From Steroidobacter denitrificans (GTDB lineage: Bacteria > Pseudomonadota > Gammaproteobacteria > Steroidobacterales > Steroidobacteraceae), in NCBI RefSeq assembly GCF_001579945.1, contig NZ_CP011971.1, forward strand, positions 2,850,030 to 2,914,029: DNA of 64,000 nt, written 5' to 3'. The position numbers were made by a program, and so were the translations under genes. Shown here one piece after another: positions 31,876 to 40,592 of the stretch. Every line of letters begins with the position of its first letter. The first letter of the stretch is position 1. The notes below the pieces were generated by a model, which was given only the letters and a program-made list of their open reading frames with translations, was not told the origin of the DNA and ran no database searches.

Positions 31876-31908
31876 TCCGCAGGCGATAACCATCTTCAAA
31901 TCACATCA

Positions 31909-31936
31909 ATCGTTATATACAATGATATATTGCGTG
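31909..31936. promoter_or_regulatory. ModE (molybdate repressor) operator, distal box
   Basis: ATCGTTATATA, six bases, then TATATTGCG. As I recall it, the proteobacterial ModE consensus is ATCGNTATATA-N6-TATATNNCGAT; all fixed positions match except the last two. It lies 165 bp upstream of the TonB receptor gene and 34 bp after the aldehyde dehydrogenase stop. Confidence 0.65.
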
Positions 31937-32061
31937 TTCTGGATTGCGCATTCTGGAAGTTGCCGGACAAGGCTTTGAGAAAGCTCTTCACGACACCCTG
32001 AGGCCGGAACAGACAAGCGTACGCGACAAGCCCATCGACAGGCCTATCCATCGCCAGGCCT

Positions 32062-32087
32062 ATCGTTATATACAAGCTAATATTACC
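32062..32087. promoter_or_regulatory. ModE operator, proximal box
   Basis: ATCGTTATATA, six bases, then AATATTACC: a perfect left half with the right half differing at two fixed positions. It ends just before the RBS (AAGGAAA) of the receptor gene, where a bound repressor would block transcription or initiation. Confidence 0.5.
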
Positions 32088-32100
32088 AAGGAAAATAAAC

Positions 32101-34341
32101 ATGTGCAGACGAGCAGCCGCGATCCCGGCGCCGGCCATCACCCTGCTGGCGAGCCTCCTGGCCACGGCAGCAGGCTCGCCGGCCCAGGCGCAAACCACGG
32201 TTCCGACCAGTACCGCCACGCCGTTCAGGCTGGGCACCATCGTCGTGACCGACACGGCGACCGAAATCGGTGAAATCGGCGCGGACCAGGTGGGCGCGGT
32301 CGTGACCCGCGAGGAAATGCGGCGGTTCAACCGCGACAACATCGCCGACGCATTGAACCTGCTCTCCGGCATCACGCTTTCCCACGGCCAGAAAAACGAA
32401 CGACGCGTGTCCATCCGCGGTTTCGAAACGACCAAGGTCGGCTTGTATGTCGACGGCATCCCGGTCTACATCCCCTTCGACGGCGCGGTGGACATGAGCC
32501 GCTTCACCACCGCGGATCTGGCGGGCATCCAGATCGCCGACGCATTGAACCTGCTCTCCGGCATCACGCTTTCCCACGGCCAGAAAAACGAACGACGCGT
32601 GTCCATCCGCGGTTTCGAAACGACCAAGGTCGGCTTGTATGTCGACGGCATCCCGGTCTACATCCCCTTCGACGGCGCGGTGGACATGAGCCGCTTCACC
32701 ACCGCGGATCTGGCGGGCATCCAGGTCGCCAAGGGCTTCACCTCGATGGCCTACGGCCCCAACGCCATGTCCGGCGTGATCAATCTCATCACGCGCAAGC
32801 CGACGGAAGCTTTCGAAGGCGATGTCATGGTCGGCTTCGGCGAGGGCAACGAGCGTCAGGCGCAAATCAATGCCGGCACCAACCAGGGCCTGTGGTACCT
32901 CCAGGGGAGCCTATCGCACCTGGAAAGCGACTGGTTCCGCATGTCCTCCGATTACGAGCCGCCCCAGGTCGTGCCACCAACGATCCCAACGACCGAGAAC
33001 GGCGGCCGGCGCAACAACTCCTACCGGAAGGACCAGAAGGCCTCCTTCAAGATCGGTCTGACGCCGAACGACACCGACGAATACGCACTCAGCTACATCA
33101 GGCAGGAAGGCGAAAAGGGCCAGCCGCCCTCGGCCGTCGTGCGCGGCAACCAATTCTGGCGCTGGCCCTACTGGGACAAGGAGAGCATCTACTTGAACAC
33201 GCGCACCGCGCTCGGTGACCAGGAGACGCTGAAGGTCAGGCTGTATCACGACACCTTCGACAACGCGATCGACATGTACACGGACGAGACCTTCACGCAG
33301 ATCGTGGGCACCGGCCCCAGCGTCTACAACGACAAGACCACCGGCGGCTCGGTCGAACTGGAATCGACCCGCATCGACAACAACACTCTGCGGCTGTTCG
33401 CCTTCTACAAGAAGGACGTCCACGACAAGGACGACGACTCCTACGTCCCCACCAGGTACGACCGGATGGAGGACGAACTGGTCTCCTACGCGATCGAGAA
33501 CAACTACCAGATTCGTCCCGACCTGCTGATTTCGCTGGGTGCCGGCCGCCACCGGTTGAAGCCGAACGAGATCTACAAATCCGACGTGGCGGGCCTGACG
33601 CTGCCGAGCGCGAAGTCGGCGACCGACGCGCAGGGTGGCCTGTTCTACGAGTGGTCGGCGCAGACGCGCTTCTACGCCACCGTGGCCAGGAAGACCCGCC
33701 TGCCGTCGCTGCAGGACCGCTATAACGCGAACTTCGGCAGGTTCATCGAAAACCCCGGCCTGCAACCGGAAAAGTCGATCAACTACGAGGTCGGCTATCA
33801 GGGCACGCTCTGGCGGGGCGCGAAGGCGGAAGCCGCGATCTTCTACAGCGAGGTCGAGGACAAGATCCAGGACTGGGCACCCAACCCGGATTCTCCCTGC
33901 ACCGCCGGCACCAACGTCTGCCAGCGGCGCAACGTCGGCAAGGTGCGCTATCCAGGCATCGAACTCAGCCTGCGCGCGCAGCTGTCGTCGCAGCTCGAAC
34001 TGGGAGGCAACTTCACCTATCTCGATCCGGAGAACGTCAGCAATTCGGAAACGAAGGTCCTCGACGTGCCGAAACGCAAGCTGACGGTGCACGCCCTGTA
34101 CCATCCCATCGACGCCGTCGATGTCGTCGCCTTCGTCGAGAACAACAGCGACCGCTGGGTATCGAACACCGTGCAGCTCGGCAACTACACCACGCTGAAC
34201 GTGAAGGCCGCCTATCGGCCGACGAAGGCGCTGACCCTGGAAGCCGGCGTCAACAACACCGCCGACAAGGACTACTCGTTCTCCAACGGCTTCCCGCAGC
34301 CCGGCCGCATGTGGTTCGCCAACACCAGCTACCGGTTCTGA
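32101..34341 (+). CDS. TonB-dependent outer-membrane receptor with internal duplication, probable metal-oxyanion or chelate uptake
   Basis: 746 residues: signal peptide ending near SPAQAQ, plug domain, 22-strand barrel type C-terminus ending in ...ANTSYRF (terminal Phe). The plug contains a 64-residue block (residues 81-144) repeated exactly as residues 145-208, so without it the protein would be 682 residues, the normal size. Its barrel has the late motif NPGLQPEKSINYEVGYQG. Upstream are two ModE-like boxes; downstream are the binding protein, permease and ATPase of a FecCD-type ABC importer, so it should deliver the same ligand across the outer membrane. Molybdate, tungstate or a chelate of them is the inference; iron-siderophore or B12 cargo remains possible. 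Confidence 0.88.
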   Translation: MCRRAAAIPAPAITLLASLLATAAGSPAQAQTTVPTSTATPFRLGTIVVTDTATEIGEIGADQVGAVVTREEMRRFNRDNIADALNLLSGITLSHGQKNERRVSIRGFETTKVGLYVDGIPVYIPFDGAVDMSRFTTADLAGIQIADALNLLSGITLSHGQKNERRVSIRGFETTKVGLYVDGIPVYIPFDGAVDMSRFTTADLAGIQVAKGFTSMAYGPNAMSGVINLITRKPTEAFEGDVMVGFGEGNERQAQINAGTNQGLWYLQGSLSHLESDWFRMSSDYEPPQVVPPTIPTTENGGRRNNSYRKDQKASFKIGLTPNDTDEYALSYIRQEGEKGQPPSAVVRGNQFWRWPYWDKESIYLNTRTALGDQETLKVRLYHDTFDNAIDMYTDETFTQIVGTGPSVYNDKTTGGSVELESTRIDNNTLRLFAFYKKDVHDKDDDSYVPTRYDRMEDELVSYAIENNYQIRPDLLISLGAGRHRLKPNEIYKSDVAGLTLPSAKSATDAQGGLFYEWSAQTRFYATVARKTRLPSLQDRYNANFGRFIENPGLQPEKSINYEVGYQGTLWRGAKAEAAIFYSEVEDKIQDWAPNPDSPCTAGTNVCQRRNVGKVRYPGIELSLRAQLSSQLELGGNFTYLDPENVSNSETKVLDVPKRKLTVHALYHPIDAVDVVAFVENNSDRWVSNTVQLGNYTTLNVKAAYRPTKALTLEAGVNNTADKDYSFSNGFPQPGRMWFANTSYRF
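32341..32532 (+). repeat. 192-bp perfect tandem duplication, unit 1
   Basis: Exact copy of 32533-32724, in frame, inside the plug-domain coding sequence. Starts at ATCGCCGACGCATTGAAC. Confidence 0.97.
32533..32724 (+). repeat. 192-bp perfect tandem duplication, unit 2
   Basis: Second copy with no base change. The outer end continues with GTCGCC where the unit start has ATCGCC, leaving a 5-bp TCGCC microhomology at the junction, as expected for slippage or unequal exchange. Confidence 0.97.
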
Positions 34342-34387
34342 TCCGGGGCAGGCGGATGGCAGCCTCTTTGTACGTCGACATTTCACC

Positions 34388-34498
34388 ATGAAAGCAGCCG
34401 TCAATACATCCGCCGTTATCCTGCTGCCGGCCCTGCGGCCGGTCATGAGGCGGGTCGTCGTGCTCGACGAATCCACCCTTCCCTTCGCCGCCGCGTGA
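34388..34498 (+). CDS. possible small protein between receptor and binding protein
   Basis: 36-codon frame MKAAVNTSAVILLPALRP...ending in PFAAA, filling the gap between receptor and binding-protein genes. No clear ribosome-binding site and no family recognised. It may be only an untranslated leader. Confidence 0.25.
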   Translation: MKAAVNTSAVILLPALRPVMRRVVVLDESTLPFAAA

Positions 34499-34500
34499 AC

Positions 34501-35565
34501 ATGCGGCGGCGTGACTTCCTGCAAGCCCTGGCGCTTGCCTCGTGGTCGGCGGCCATTGCCTCACCGACAGCGGCAAGAACGGCGAGGGCGGCGGGTACCG
34601 GCATCGCCGCCGCCTTCGGGGAGATACCACCGTCGCAGCGCGTGGCGCGCATCTTCGCTGCCGGCGCGCCGGCCGGTATCCTGGTCAACGCCCTGGCGCC
34701 GGAGAAGCTGCTCGGCTGGCCGCTGCAACTCGGCAAGGAGGCCCGTTCCTGGCTTGCGCCGGCGGCGCGCGACCGGCCCTTTCTAGGACGTCTCGGCGGA
34801 CGCGGCAGCACCGTGTCGGTCGAGACCCTGCTGCAATTGAAGCCGGACCTGATCCTCGACGTCGGCAGCACCGATGCCACCCATGTCTCCGCCATGCGGC
34901 GGCTGGCGGAGCAGACCGGCCTGCCCTGCCTGCTGATCCAGGGCCGCCTCGCCGAGCATCCGGTGCAGTTGCGTGAAGTCGGACAGCTGCTCGGCGTCGC
35001 TGCGCGCGGTGAACGCCTGGCGGCCTGGGCCGACGATACGCTTGTTCGCGCCGCGCGGGTACGTGCCGCACTGACGCCGAACGAGCGCCCGCGTGTTTAT
35101 TTCGGACGCGGCGCCGACGGCCTTGAAACCGGACTGGCGGGTTCGATCAACATGGAGGTGATCGACGCCGCCGCCGGCATCAACGTCGCCGCGGCCGCCG
35201 GCCGGGGCGGTCTGGCACGGGTATCGCTGGAACAGATATTGGCCTGGAACCCGGATGTGATCATCACCCATGACCGTAACTTTGTCCGTCGGGCGCTTCG
35301 TGATCCGCTGTGGCGTGCGCTCGAGGCGGTACGCGCCGGGCGCGTGTACTGTGCACCCAGCACGCCCTTCGGCTGGCTCGACCTGCCGCCGGGCATCAAT
35401 CGCCTGATCGGCGTGTGCTGGCTGCTGGCGCGACTGCACGCCGGCCGCTCCTTTGCACCCACGCTCGAGGACGTGCGCACCGACACCGACGAATTCTACC
35501 GGCTGTTCTACGGCACCGATCTCGCGACCAGTGCATTCGATCGCCTGCTGGAAGGCGACGCTTGA
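34501..35565 (+). CDS. periplasmic binding protein of the FecCD-type ABC importer (Tat-exported)
   Basis: 354 residues, cluster of BtuF/FhuD/MolA-like class III binding proteins. It starts with a twin-arginine signal (MRRRDFLQALALASW) and continues with two lobes joined by a long helix: VETLLQLKPDLILDVGST in the first, LEQILAWNPDVIITHDRNF in the second. Tat export suits folding before export. The frame also allows a GTG two codons earlier. It is followed after 2 bp by the permease gene, so the pair is coupled. Ligand not evident; ModE-like sites upstream of the operon favour an oxyanion or its chelate. Confidence 0.88.
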   Translation: MRRRDFLQALALASWSAAIASPTAARTARAAGTGIAAAFGEIPPSQRVARIFAAGAPAGILVNALAPEKLLGWPLQLGKEARSWLAPAARDRPFLGRLGGRGSTVSVETLLQLKPDLILDVGSTDATHVSAMRRLAEQTGLPCLLIQGRLAEHPVQLREVGQLLGVAARGERLAAWADDTLVRAARVRAALTPNERPRVYFGRGADGLETGLAGSINMEVIDAAAGINVAAAAGRGGLARVSLEQILAWNPDVIITHDRNFVRRALRDPLWRALEAVRAGRVYCAPSTPFGWLDLPPGINRLIGVCWLLARLHAGRSFAPTLEDVRTDTDEFYRLFYGTDLATSAFDRLLEGDA

Positions 35566-35567
35566 GT

Positions 35568-36581
35568 ATGCCGGCCCGTCATCGCGTATCGCTCTGGCTG
35601 GTCGCCGCGGCGCTGCTCGCCACGATCGTCGCCACGGCCTTCGCTGTCGGTAAATATCCGGTATCGCCGAGCGATCTGCTGCGCGCGCTGGCTGGACGCC
35701 TCGCCGGGACGGACTCCGGCCTGCCACAGGCGGTGGAAACGGTGATCTGGAACATCCGCCTGCCGCGCATCGCCGCCGGCCTCCTCGTCGGCGCCGTGCT
35801 CGCCGCTGCCGGCGCCGCCTATCAAGGCATGTTCCGCAATCCGCTGGTGTCGCCGGACATCCTGGGCGTATCGACCGGCGCCGGACTGGGTGCCTCGCTC
35901 GGCATCTTCCTGAGTCTGCCGCTGGCCGCCGTGCAGGGCCTGGCCTTTGTCGGCGGGCTGGCGGCCGTCGGTATCGTCTACCAGATCGCCAGTCTGGTGC
36001 GCCGACACGACCCGGTACTGGTCCTAGTGCTGGCCGGCGTCGCCATCAGCGCGCTGCTGGGTGCCGGTATCTCGCTGATCAAGATTCTCTCCGACCCCTA
36101 CGCCCAGCTTGCCTCGATCACCTTCTGGCTGCTCGGCGGCCTCAACGCGGTGACCTGCAGCGAGCTTGCGGCAACGGCACCCGCCATGCTGGCCGGCCTG
36201 GTGCCGATGGCACTGTTGCGCTGGCGCATGAACCTGCTCAGCCTCGCCGACGAGGAAGCCTCGGCGCTCGGCATCGATGTCGTCCGCCTGCGCCTGATCC
36301 TGGTCACCGCCGCCACGCTGAGCACCGCGGCCACGGTCTCGCTGGCCGGCATTGTCGGCTGGATCGGCCTGGTGGTGCCGCATATCGCGCGTTTGCTGGT
36401 GGGCCCCGATTTCTCGCGCCTGCTGCCGGCCTCGCTGCTGCTGGGTGCCGGTTTCCTGGTCATCACCGACACCCTGGCACGCACCGTCGTGTCCATGGAA
36501 CTGCCGCTGGGTATCCTCACCGCCTTGGTCGGTGCCCCCTTTTTCCTGTTCCTGCTCGCTCGCGGTGGAAAGACGGCATGA
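35568..36581 (+). CDS. FecCD-family ABC transporter permease
   Basis: 337-residue inner-membrane permease of the BtuC/FecCD/MolB family, with about ten hydrophobic segments. Family motifs include RLPRIAAGLLVGAVLAAAGAAYQGMFRNPLVSPDI (split here by normal length), GASLGIFLSLPL, and the coupling region GIVGWIGLVVPHIARLLVG. The ATG at 35568 is 2 bp after the binding-protein stop. MolB of Haemophilus influenzae, a molybdate/tungstate importer, belongs to this same fold, which makes the ModE inference reasonable. Confidence 0.92.
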   Translation: MPARHRVSLWLVAAALLATIVATAFAVGKYPVSPSDLLRALAGRLAGTDSGLPQAVETVIWNIRLPRIAAGLLVGAVLAAAGAAYQGMFRNPLVSPDILGVSTGAGLGASLGIFLSLPLAAVQGLAFVGGLAAVGIVYQIASLVRRHDPVLVLVLAGVAISALLGAGISLIKILSDPYAQLASITFWLLGGLNAVTCSELAATAPAMLAGLVPMALLRWRMNLLSLADEEASALGIDVVRLRLILVTAATLSTAATVSLAGIVGWIGLVVPHIARLLVGPDFSRLLPASLLLGAGFLVITDTLARTVVSMELPLGILTALVGAPFFLFLLARGGKTA

Positions 36582-36624
36582 AGGCGCGACGCCATATTGA
36601 GCACACAACGTCCTGGATACCATC

Positions 36625-37455
36625 ATGAGCGCCGCGGCGGCAATCGAAGCGCGCGCGCTGAGTATCGGCTACCGCAACCATTGCGTCGGCACGGACATCT
36701 CGTTTGCCGTCGCCGCCGGTGAGGTGCTGTGCCTGCTCGGTCCCAACGGCAGCGGCAAGACGACGCTGTTCAAAACCCTGCTCGGCCTGCTGGCGCCGCT
36801 GGCGGGTGAGGTACGAGTGCTCGACGAACCGGTCTGCGGCTGGCCGCGAGCCGCCTTCGCCCGTCACGTCGGCTATGTGCCGCAGGCGCATGCCGGACTC
36901 TTCGCCTTCACTGCCGAGGACATCGTGCTGATGGCGCGCACCGCCCGCCTCGGCCGGTTCGCCGTGCCTTCGCGACACGACCGCCAAATCGCTGCGGACT
37001 GTCTCGCGGCGCTCGGGATCGGCCATCTGCGCCAGCGCATCTATACCCGCATCAGCGGCGGCGAACGCCAATTGGTATTGATCGCACGCGCCCTGGCACA
37101 GCAACCGGTATTACTGGTGATGGACGAACCGACCGCCAGTCTCGACTTCGGCAATCAGATCCGGGTGCTGGAACACATCAACCATCTGCGCACCCAGGGA
37201 ATCGGCGTGCTGATGTCCACCCACCAGCCGGAGCATGCCCTGCGTGTCGCCGACCGTATCGCCCTGCTCGCGCCGGGGGGTCTGGTCGGTATCGGCGCTC
37301 CCGTCGCCATCGCCACGCCGGCGAATCTCGCTGCGCTCTACGGCGTTACCGAGGATGCCGTCGCCGCTGCATTCGCATTCCCTAATGGCATTCCAGCGCC
37401 TACTGCCCTACTCTCGAACGCAGCGCATCATCGCGCCGCCAGGAGAATCTCATGA
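36625..37455 (+). CDS. ABC transporter ATPase (FecE/BtuD/MolC type)
   Basis: 276 residues with Walker A GPNGSGKTT, Q-loop GYVPQ, signature ISGGERQ, Walker B VLLVMDEPTASLD and the switch His in MSTHQPEHAL. Energises the permease before it. 43 bp separate it from the permease stop. The C-terminal 30 residues (from about AAFAFPNGIP) are beyond the usual ATPase core. Confidence 0.94.
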   Translation: MSAAAAIEARALSIGYRNHCVGTDISFAVAAGEVLCLLGPNGSGKTTLFKTLLGLLAPLAGEVRVLDEPVCGWPRAAFARHVGYVPQAHAGLFAFTAEDIVLMARTARLGRFAVPSRHDRQIAADCLAALGIGHLRQRIYTRISGGERQLVLIARALAQQPVLLVMDEPTASLDFGNQIRVLEHINHLRTQGIGVLMSTHQPEHALRVADRIALLAPGGLVGIGAPVAIATPANLAALYGVTEDAVAAAFAFPNGIPAPTALLSNAAHHRAARRIS

Positions 37456-37802
37456 TGCAAGCCAACAAATCGATTTCGGCACTGACACTGGCCTTCAGCT
37501 TGTGTGTCTTCATGCTGCCGGCGAATGCCCAGGAGCACTCTGCCGCCAAGAGCGAGCAGGCCTGGCTTGCATCACTGATCACGAAGACTCCCCAGGAAGG
37601 CTTCGAGCTTGCCACGACGCTCGCCCGGCGGGGTGTTCGGGCGACGCAGCCCGACACCGAGGTCCTTCGCGATCTGCGCAGCGTCTATGCAAGCGACCCC
37701 GATAGTCTCATTGCAGCATCGAGCGTCGTGGCGATTCATTTCCAGACGATCGCCGCGGCCAATGACTATTGGCGCTCATCCGGCACGCAGGCGCGCGACT
37801 GA
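37452..37802 (+). CDS. small exported protein of the uptake operon, unknown function
   Basis: 116 residues: a signal peptide (MMQANKSISALTLAFSLCVFMLPANAQ) with cleavage near NAQ-EH, then about 90 residues with repeated helical character and no Cys. The ATG overlaps the ATPase stop (ATGATG/TGA), so it is translated as part of the transporter operon. I do not recognise a family. Its position suggests a periplasmic accessory role such as ligand handling, or a chelate-release step. Confidence 0.7.
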   Translation: MMQANKSISALTLAFSLCVFMLPANAQEHSAAKSEQAWLASLITKTPQEGFELATTLARRGVRATQPDTEVLRDLRSVYASDPDSLIAASSVVAIHFQTIAAANDYWRSSGTQARD

Positions 37803-38255: not shown

Positions 38256-40592
38256 ATGCTGAACAAGAAGATCCTGTCACGCAACCTGCAGGCCGGTCTT
38301 GCCGCCGGCGCGGCGATTGCGGGATTTTACGGTCACGAAGCCGTTGCTCAACAGCAACAGTTCACCGCCAGCGGTATTCAGGAGGTGATCGTCACTGCCC
38401 AAAGGCGCGAAGAATCTTTGCAGGATACGCCGATCGCGATTACGGCGATTTCGGCCGAAGAGCTCGCCGACCGTGGTATCACCGACTATCAGGGTGTGGC
38501 GGCGACTACTCCCGCCATCACCTTTACGCAATATCCAAGTTCACCGAACACCTTCATCCTGTACATGCGGGGGCAAGGTGTATCGGATGCGATGCAGGTG
38601 ACCGTCGATAGCGCGGTCGGTCTTTACCAGGACGGCTTCTATATCTCCCGGCCGCAGTTGATCACCTTCGATCTTGCCGACATCGAACGCGTGGAGGTGC
38701 TACGCGGCCCGCAGGGTACCTTGTACGGACGCAACACCACGGGCGGCGCGGTGAACCTGATCAGCAAGAAGCCCTCGGGTGAATTCGGTTTCAAGCAGGA
38801 ACTCGGCTTCGGCAACAAGGGCCGGCTGCGAAGTCTTTCGGTGCTCGATCTGCCCAAGTGGAACGGTCTGTCCGCCAAGCTGTCCTTCCTGAAGCGTGAA
38901 CAGAACGGCTATGTGAAAAACCTCGGTACCGGCCATGATTTCGGCGAGGAGGATCAGATTGCCGGACGTGTGGCGCTGCGCTGGGATGTGGGCGGACCCG
39001 TCACGGCGGATTACTTCTATGAGCGGGGCGATCTGGATTCGACGCCGACCTACTATACGAACTCCGGCCTGGTCGGATTGATTCCGGGATACAGCGACAG
39101 CGGCAAGCCGGAGTCGCACACCTACCGGCCTTTCGATCTGGAGGAGAGTAAGGGTACGTTCGAGGCGCACGGCCTGACGCTCGCCTGGAACGTCAACGAT
39201 GCGCTGACGCTGAAATCGCTCACCGGCTATCGGGAAATAAGTGTCGGCTATTATCAGGATTATGGCGATGCCTTTTTCACCAGCTATCGCACCTTCGACG
39301 ATATTCGCTCGCATCAGTTCTCCGAGGAGCTGCAGGCGGTGGGCAGCCTGTTCGACGGCCGTATAGACTATGTCGCGGGCCTGTATTACTTCGATGAGCA
39401 CGTACGCCACTTCGAGAACCTGACGATCACGGAACTCTTCCCGCCGCCGCTGCTTCTGGTCAAGGATCGCTATGTCGAGGGTGACTCCAAGTCCAAGGCG
39501 GCCTTTGCCCAGTTCACCTGGACACCGCCGGTACTGGACGACCGCCTATCGCTTACTTTCGGCGCCCGCTACACCAAGGATGAGCGTCAGGCCGAGCGAC
39601 AAATGCTGGATACTTTCTTCGGTTTCCCGATTGGGGAGGAGCCCACTCCCGGCGTTGCCAACTCAAACTCGGTGAAATACAACCGTTTCAATCCGGCCTT
39701 CACGGCCAACTACGCCTGGACTGACGATGTCAGCTCCTATCTGCGTATCGCCACCGGCTACAAGTCGGGAGGCATGTCCGAGGCGGTGGAGGCCGGGCGA
39801 TTCGCTGAACTTGCCTATAAGCCCGAGAAGGTTTTGGTCTATGAACTAGGCCTCAAGTCCTACCTGCTCGATCGTCGCGTCCGCCTGAATGCGGCGGTGT
39901 TCGAAAGCAAGTTCGACGACATGCAGATGTTCTTTACCACTAATCCGACCGATCCTTCCGTGGTACTAGCCCTCAATGCCGGCAAGGCCACGGTCAGGGG
40001 GCTTGAGCTGGAGGCACTCTGGCAGCCGATCGAGGCACTGAGCTTCACCCTCGATTACAGCTATCTCGATGCGAAGTTCGATCGGGTGCTAGCACCGGCC
40101 GGCACGATCTTCGATCCGTCGGTGAATCCCTATTCGCCCTACCAGATCGGCGATAACGTCAAGGATGTATTCGTGATGCCGTATGCGCCGGAAAACAGCA
40201 TCAATGCGGGGCTCAGCTGGACCCTCCTGAATATGGCTACCGATTCATTGACGGCCGTCCTGAATTATCGCTGGCAGGATAAGACCTACATTACCTCTCC
40301 TGCAGGGCCTGCCGTACCGGGTCGAGATCTGTATTCACGCCCCTCCTTCGGGCTGCTCGATGCACGTTTGGTCTGGAGGACCGAGCTTGCCAATCAGGCC
40401 AAACTGCGCGTCGATCTATGGGGCAAGAATCTGAACAATCAAAAATGGCCGGCTGAAGTCATCGCTCAGGGCAACTCCATTCCGCTACCTGACTCGGTGA
40501 CCGGGGATTATTCACCGGCAGGCTGGACCTCACAGGCCGCGACCTGGTCGGAACGCCGTACTTATGGGGTGAACTTCGTCTACGAGTTCTAA
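38256..40592 (+). CDS. TonB-dependent receptor (lipid/steroid- or xenobiotic-type)
   Basis: 778 residues: signal peptide to about residue 31 (HEAVAQ), plug domain starting ASGIQEVIVTAQRREESLQDTPIAITAISAEELADRGI and DIERVEVLRGPQGTLYGRNTTGGAVNLISKKP, barrel with KSYLLDRRVRLNAAVFESKFDD and a C-terminal YGVNFVYEF. This receptor type is plentiful in sphingomonads, Caulobacter and steroid degraders, where it takes up large hydrophobic or glycosidic molecules. It stands before a convergent luciferase-like oxidoreductase and an SDR/cycloisomerase-like gene set, and ends in a strong terminator. Confidence 0.92.
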   Translation: MLNKKILSRNLQAGLAAGAAIAGFYGHEAVAQQQQFTASGIQEVIVTAQRREESLQDTPIAITAISAEELADRGITDYQGVAATTPAITFTQYPSSPNTFILYMRGQGVSDAMQVTVDSAVGLYQDGFYISRPQLITFDLADIERVEVLRGPQGTLYGRNTTGGAVNLISKKPSGEFGFKQELGFGNKGRLRSLSVLDLPKWNGLSAKLSFLKREQNGYVKNLGTGHDFGEEDQIAGRVALRWDVGGPVTADYFYERGDLDSTPTYYTNSGLVGLIPGYSDSGKPESHTYRPFDLEESKGTFEAHGLTLAWNVNDALTLKSLTGYREISVGYYQDYGDAFFTSYRTFDDIRSHQFSEELQAVGSLFDGRIDYVAGLYYFDEHVRHFENLTITELFPPPLLLVKDRYVEGDSKSKAAFAQFTWTPPVLDDRLSLTFGARYTKDERQAERQMLDTFFGFPIGEEPTPGVANSNSVKYNRFNPAFTANYAWTDDVSSYLRIATGYKSGGMSEAVEAGRFAELAYKPEKVLVYELGLKSYLLDRRVRLNAAVFESKFDDMQMFFTTNPTDPSVVLALNAGKATVRGLELEALWQPIEALSFTLDYSYLDAKFDRVLAPAGTIFDPSVNPYSPYQIGDNVKDVFVMPYAPENSINAGLSWTLLNMATDSLTAVLNYRWQDKTYITSPAGPAVPGRDLYSRPSFGLLDARLVWRTELANQAKLRVDLWGKNLNNQKWPAEVIAQGNSIPLPDSVTGDYSPAGWTSQAATWSERRTYGVNFVYEF

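Follow-up and report, generated by a model that had tools for sequence, protein, structure and literature searches.

A putative ModE-regulated, TonB-dependent operon for molybdenum or tungsten uptake in Steroidobacter denitrificans

We have analyzed an operon of Steroidobacter denitrificans that encodes a TonB-dependent receptor and an ATP-binding cassette (ABC) importer of the FecCD type. It lies within a stretch of 64,000 nt (the window) taken from the forward strand of contig NZ_CP011971.1, positions 2,850,030-2,914,029, in assembly GCF_001579945.1. Comparative analysis makes it highly probable that this is a ModE-regulated operon for the TonB-dependent uptake of molybdenum or tungsten. Within this reading, control of the ModE type and a link to molybdenum metabolism are well supported by several comparative lines, and for the cargo of the receptor the best inference is molybdenum or tungsten. 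The features are listed below, where coordinates are window positions, as they are throughout unless a locus (L-number) or contig C1 is named.

31895..31923, + strand: promoter-like pair TTCAAA-N17-TACAAT, 9/12 match, with its -10 hexamer within site 1
31909..31936, no strand assigned: ModE-like operator, site 1, from pattern scans; genome-unique within one mismatch of a strict palindrome
32062..32089, no strand assigned: ModE-like operator, site 2 (weaker), immediately 5′ of the receptor start codon
32101..34341, + strand: TonB-dependent receptor, 746 amino acids (aa), PF00593 and PF07715
32341..32724, + strand: exact 192-bp in-frame tandem duplication in the plug-coding region of the receptor
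34495..35565, + strand: periplasmic binding protein, PF01497, with an RRRDFLQ N-terminus that is Tat-like by eye
35568..36581, + strand: FecCD-family permease, best solved relative HI1471 (MolB)
36625..37455, + strand: ABC ATPase, best solved relative HI1470 (MolC)
37452..37802, + strand: HTHP heme protein, PF11534, with a signal-like N-terminus by eye; its start codon overlaps the ATPase stop

The original prediction, made from the window alone, had placed two ModE-like sites upstream of the receptor. Both are found there, although site 2 as matched ends at 32089 and not at 32087. Measured against the consensus used in that prediction (19 fixed positions), site 1 has two mismatches, in agreement with its description as a match at nearly every fixed position, and site 2 has three. 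No matches at the level of the two sites were obtained in 100 dinucleotide shuffles of the window. The right half of the earlier consensus was one position too loose, because the published Escherichia coli consensus, ATCGNTATATA-N6-TATATANCGAT (PMC545781), is tighter. Site 1 also qualifies, with one mismatch, as an E. coli-type operator palindrome CGNTATATA-N6-TATATANCG upstream of a target.

Scanning the whole 3.47-Mb genome singles out the same place. The core pattern of the original prediction (15 fixed positions) is matched without mismatch only at site 1, and site 1 is the only position within one mismatch of the strict palindrome CGYTATNNA-N6-TNNATARCG, a pattern composed after the sites had been seen. 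With up to three mismatches allowed, the core pattern has 15 forward matches in the genome, compared with 22 for the control. The promoter-like pair is weak taken alone, one being found where 0.8 is expected in shuffles; the position of its -10 hexamer inside site 1 fits repression by ModE.

We also considered a second ModE target in the same genome. Two overlapping ModE-like matches (C1:3258462; L019 and L028) lie about 280 bp 5′ of a frame named by eye as a cytochrome/PQQ-type dehydrogenase. The candidate was dropped because its closest orthologs (L200-L203, 60-69% identity) lack CGYTAT-N-ATARCG within one mismatch in the stretches read, and because two-mismatch matches to the strict pattern, of which the genome has 9, do not exceed background (25 for the control).

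The regulator itself, which the original prediction proposed to seek in the rest of the genome, is present there. It is a full-length ModE, in which two Mop stretches accompany the DNA-binding domain, and it scores 110.6 bits with TIGR00637 (cut-off 98.5). Genes for a methyltransferase, a DUF2478 protein and a DUF364 protein adjoin modE, about 480 kb from the operon. Molybdoenzymes were likewise found, as three PF00384 molybdopterin oxidoreductases, the best of them in a frame of 1272 aa that lies some 10 kb away from modE. The genome encodes modA, modB and, next to modB, modC elsewhere, with moaA-, moeA- and mobA-like frames near modB (by eye).

The binding protein is sparsely distributed around the lineage of the window, occurring at E ≤1e-30 in 3 of 97 relatives (genus, 0/13; other family, 0/46; order, 3/38) with 46-47% identity. 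Neither receptor nor site was found for the three order-level relatives in the stretches fetched, that of L027 being a short contig. The nearest named kin, among the best 80 of 116 matches, are metagenome-assembled genomes of Rhodoferax (64%) and Acidovorax (63%), and in the family of the Acidovorax genome the protein is present at E ≤1e-60 in 22 of 399 genomes. A tree of 46 binding proteins places the 24 that are linked to a receptor, that of the window included, in a single clade (support 96/90, one label change). It is likely that the operon reached the lineage of the window by horizontal transfer.

These 24 receptor loci were read as stretches of 8-17 kb, in which genes were matched by tblastn with the proteins of L039 and L040; L178 and L179 come from the same genome. 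In every one a related TonB receptor precedes the same binding protein, with a MolBCA-like permease behind it in 23. Conserved operators upstream of the orthologous operons, on which the original prediction depended, are also found. Leaving aside L189 (a near-copy of L188), an E. coli-type ModE site with three or fewer mismatches lies in the 500 bp 5′ of the aligned receptor start in 12 of 23 loci (nine with two or fewer, six with one or none), set against 0 in 100 dinucleotide-shuffled sets and 3 of 681 other 500-bp windows. Conservation extends to all loci only with the relaxed palindrome CGYTAT-N10..13-ATARCG, which is present within two mismatches in 24/24, L189 included (14 exact, five with one mismatch and five with two). 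The background for this relaxed form, from 646 control windows drawn from L178-L198 with the receptor-upstream windows among them, is 51 at two or fewer mismatches and 13 at one or fewer.

The strict palindrome was also run through 21 of the 22 receptor-bearing genomes besides that of the window, the near-copy G462 being omitted. It was found at 16 places in 11 genomes, 12 of which, in 10 genomes, are directly 5′ of this receptor; the reversed control pattern was found at 8 places. Since the pattern was composed with the sites in view, this result speaks for specificity and not for discovery. Paired sites like sites 1 and 2 recur in L039, L180, L183 and L186.

A second class of operator, with a spacing of 11 and the form CGYTATT..GAATARCG, is found in L042, L181, L182, L184, L185, L188 and L189. 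Judged from the translated regulators, the spacing of the operator goes with the architecture of the ModE protein linked to it. Spacing 12 is found in all seven loci where the linked ModE is full-length, and spacing 11 in all four where the linked gene encodes a Mop-only protein (L182, L184, L188) or a Mop fragment (L181), without a DNA-binding domain. This suggests split ModE systems with altered operators. The change in spacing was probably not a single event, because L181 groups with the full-length-ModE loci in the binding-protein tree (85/91). In L179 a ModE with only its helix-turn-helix part accompanies a weak spacing-12 site.

The genes that surround the operon in its relatives point in the same direction as the operators. 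At least one homolog of ModA, ModB, ModD or ModE is present in 15 of the 24 receptor loci, with ModA or ModB in 11 and ModD in nine; the other members are DUF2478 (22 loci), the methyltransferase (14) and DUF364 (9). The query genes of L039 and L040 named ModA, ModB, ModD and ModE all score above the cut-offs of the corresponding NCBIfam models. In Acidovorax the order is receptor, a weakly ModA-like protein, DUF2478, binding protein, permease, ATPase, methyltransferase, DUF364, ModD and ModE. The operon resembles ModE-regulated modABC(D) in its palindromic ModE-type operators and in the frequent clustering of its relatives with ModA, ModB, ModD or ModE, and differs from it in joining a FecCD-type importer to an outer-membrane receptor, where modABC(D) has the ModBC importer alone.

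Two further observations concern these loci. The weakly ModA-like protein, encoded between receptor and DUF2478 at 6440-7402 of L039, scores 20.9 bits with PF13531 (cut-off 25) and has homologs in L042, L178, L184 and L187; it is possibly a second periplasmic molybdenum binder. In L179 (13309-15962) and L185 (13115-15839) the methyltransferase is followed by another set of FecCD-type permease, ATPase and binding protein, at 53, 47 and 30% to the first, which may constitute a sister importer for another metal.

Domain-profile matches bear out the earlier description of the receptor, which has plug and β-barrel domains (PF07715/PF00593), and of the binding protein, FecCD permease and ATPase. Among solved structures the best relatives of the permease and ATPase are HI1471 and HI1470 (2NQ2; E 3.9e-57 and 7e-39). 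MolB is thus the nearest solved relative of the permease, and the assignment to the permease type of Haemophilus MolBCA stands. These two subunits thus connect the operon to MolBCA (H. influenzae HI1470-1472); the binding protein is related to MolA (3PSA), which is not its nearest solved relative. The operon of the window differs in being headed by a TonB receptor with ModE-type operators in front.

A number of observations weigh against uptake of molybdenum or tungsten, and the first group concerns the transporter. Among the solved relatives of the binding protein MolA (profile E 1.5e-29) ranks no higher than third by sequence, after 4PAG and 4OVK. The AlphaFold model of the binding protein (mean pLDDT 86.4) has Z scores of 36.4 to 4PAG and 24.9 to MolA, which comes fourth by fold; the folds of YiuA, CeuE and BtuF also resemble it. 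Fold comparison cannot separate molybdenum from iron-complex binders here, because 4PAG, 4HN9, 4OVK, 3PSA and YiuA all match. Two arginines, R205 and R303, are invariant in 20 relatives of the binding protein, and in the alignment with MolA they face Asn and Leu. This difference from MolA raises the possibility that the ligand is an anionic complex rather than a bare oxyanion. MolBC-A is moreover described as a low-affinity system (PMC4031551). Finally, the top NCBIfam models for the permease and ATPase are those for corrinoid transport, both below cut-off (BtuC, 250 of 461 bits; corrinoid ATPase, 184 of 537 bits).

Some of these similarities would also fit an operon for uptake of a ferric siderophore, heme or a corrinoid that is incidentally expressed at low molybdate, serving, for example, to feed an alternative enzyme. 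Such operons (CirA/FepA, FecA, BtuB) share with the present one the combination of receptor, PF01497 protein, FecCD permease and ATPase, and the closest solved relatives of the L039 receptor are CirA, PhuR and FepA-type proteins. (An AlphaFold model of that receptor, built from five sequences, had a mean pLDDT of 48.8 and was too poor to use.) HTHP, by its family name, binds heme, and in Azotobacter TonB siderophore receptors controlled by VnfA1 answer shortage of molybdenum and vanadium (PMC9542535). We nevertheless regard this explanation as improbable. The best match to a Fur box upstream of the operon is 11/19 (9-12 in relatives), within the background of the window, and no Rfam family, and hence no riboswitch, reaches its gathering score between 30 and 40 kb. 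All the NCBIfam models for heme, B12 and siderophore transport fall below cut-off with the proteins of the operon, including the B12 equivalogs BtuB (118 of 599.7 bits) and BtuF (24.8 of 234 bits). The operators in front are of the ModE type, ModA/B/D/E homologs surround the operon in the 15 loci noted above, and HTHP was not matched beside any other copy of the operon in the loci read.

A second group, of limits and contrary observations, concerns regulation and gene content. Site 2 alone, with 2/15 mismatches to the core pattern, is not clearly above the genome background, and the five loci with two-mismatch palindromes are individually weak because 51 of the 646 background windows match equally well. 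Around modA and modB of the window's genome, the stretches of 11 kb that were read contain no ModE site within four mismatches; these classic targets do not look ModE-controlled, and with modA and modBC at hand the operon may be redundant. In 9 of 24 receptor loci (the window, L041, L042, L185, L189 (contig ends), L190, L191, L192 and L196) no modA, modB, modD or modE homolog was found in the stretch read. L190 has the receptor, DUF2478, the binding protein and an exact spacing-12 palindrome upstream, and gave no match to permease or ATPase within its 16 kb. ModE scores were compared for L039, L040, L041 and L042 (L043 was not included) among the named receptor-bearing genomes; they are above cut-off in L039 and L040 and below it in L041 and L042, two of these genomes (G100 and G101) having 85.0 and 90.1 bits against the cut-off of 98.5. 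Lastly, the 192-bp duplication lengthens the plug region by 64 residues, and the four relatives with which the receptor was aligned lack it. Either it arose very recently or it is an artefact of assembly; if real, it may disable this copy of the receptor.

Taking these together with the operators, ModE and the linked genes, we retain ModE-regulated uptake of molybdenum or tungsten as the best reading, and can outline how the operon would work. When molybdenum or tungsten is short, the low level of intracellular molybdate would leave ModE ligand-free and off the operators, so that the operon is transcribed. The receptor, powered by TonB-ExbBD, would carry a scarce molybdenum or tungsten species over the outer membrane; the binding protein, probably exported by the Tat pathway, would pass it to a homodimer of the FecCD permease and the accompanying ATPase, acting as a MolBCA-like type II importer that delivers the cargo to the cytoplasm. 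As molybdate rises, molybdate-bound ModE would occupy the operator over the -10 region and transcription would stop. Computation establishes the gene content, the conserved operator, the presence of ModE, the Mod genes nearby in relatives and the kinship with MolBC; we infer the direction of regulation, the ligand and the dependence on TonB. The form of the cargo, whether free oxyanion or chelate, is the most uncertain element.

Two variants of the ligand deserve mention. ModE responds to tungstate as well as to molybdate, and a system specific for tungstate would be a special case of the above scheme, not exclusive of it. MolA binds both oxyanions (PMC4031551), and the gene neighbours of DUF364 include molybdate, tungstate and vanadium transport genes (PMC2954201). 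The linked genes, however, pass models of molybdate type (modA, modB and modD), and a molybdoenzyme frame of nitrate-reductase size lies near modE, so we consider specificity for tungstate unlikely. A vanadium uptake system repressed by molybdenum through ModE can draw on the DUF364 neighbours RPA1384-1385, listed under vanadium in the same account (PMC2954201); given that the linked genes belong to the modA/B/D/E families, it seems very improbable indeed.

We can tentatively go further and envisage a 'molybdophore' system, a possibility that we put forward with some doubt. In this the receptor would import molybdenum on an organic ligand, and the methyltransferase, DUF364, DUF2478 and the QPRTase-like ModD might synthesize, alter or remove that ligand, with ModE controlling the whole set. 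DUF364 has been proposed, from structure and gene context, to function in metal chelation (PMC2954201).

For an outer-membrane step that depends on molybdenum status there is a precedent in Azotobacter vinelandii, where operons of TonB receptors and ABC genes (Avin_30860, Avin_39890 and Avin_47130) respond via VnfA1/VnfA3, being induced when molybdenum and vanadium are both absent (PMC9542535). Their control differs, being exerted by Sigma-54 and VnfA in connection with the regulation of alternative nitrogenase and not by ModE. A review of TonB transporters (PMC11658791) contains no mention of molybd-, tungst-, nickel or cobalt. In the titles and abstract openings surveyed there is no molybdate TonB receptor under ModE; most subscription papers and RegPrecise lay outside this survey, and an earlier prediction may exist.

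The last gene of the operon is one point at which the original prediction had to be modified. It had described a small exported protein; the gene is at its place, and its product is now identified as an HTHP heme protein (PF11534, E 1.7e-35, 121.7 bits, gathering cut-off 25). PF11534 is present in 8 of 98 genomes, including that of the window. No gene of the operon was matched at the seven other HTHP loci (about 1.5 kb of flanking sequence), L222 matching only the second, unrelated receptor of the window. We therefore rejected the idea that HTHP belongs generally to the system, given its absence beside the other operon copies read, and treat it as a local addition. That second TonB receptor (PF00593/PF07715, 778 aa) is encoded at 38256-40592, right downstream of the operon. 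In L225 (1-1728) HTHP adjoins a redoxin-like frame and a MOSC-domain-like frame, both named by eye, and this neighbourhood is a possible further link between HTHP and the molybdenum cofactor. In an operon of the ModE type the HTHP family would have a new context.

Molybdate is usually taken to enter the periplasm through porins, and an energised step at the outer membrane would therefore be a new layer of molybdenum nutrition. If our reading is correct, the operon represents an undescribed route for scarce molybdenum (or tungsten) through the outer membrane, a new kind of ModE target, and a candidate for the receptor that takes up organically bound molybdenum. It would also make DUF364, DUF2478 and ModD accessible to genetic study, and from the two classes of operator, associated with whole and split ModE, one could learn how a metal regulator changes in step with its sites.

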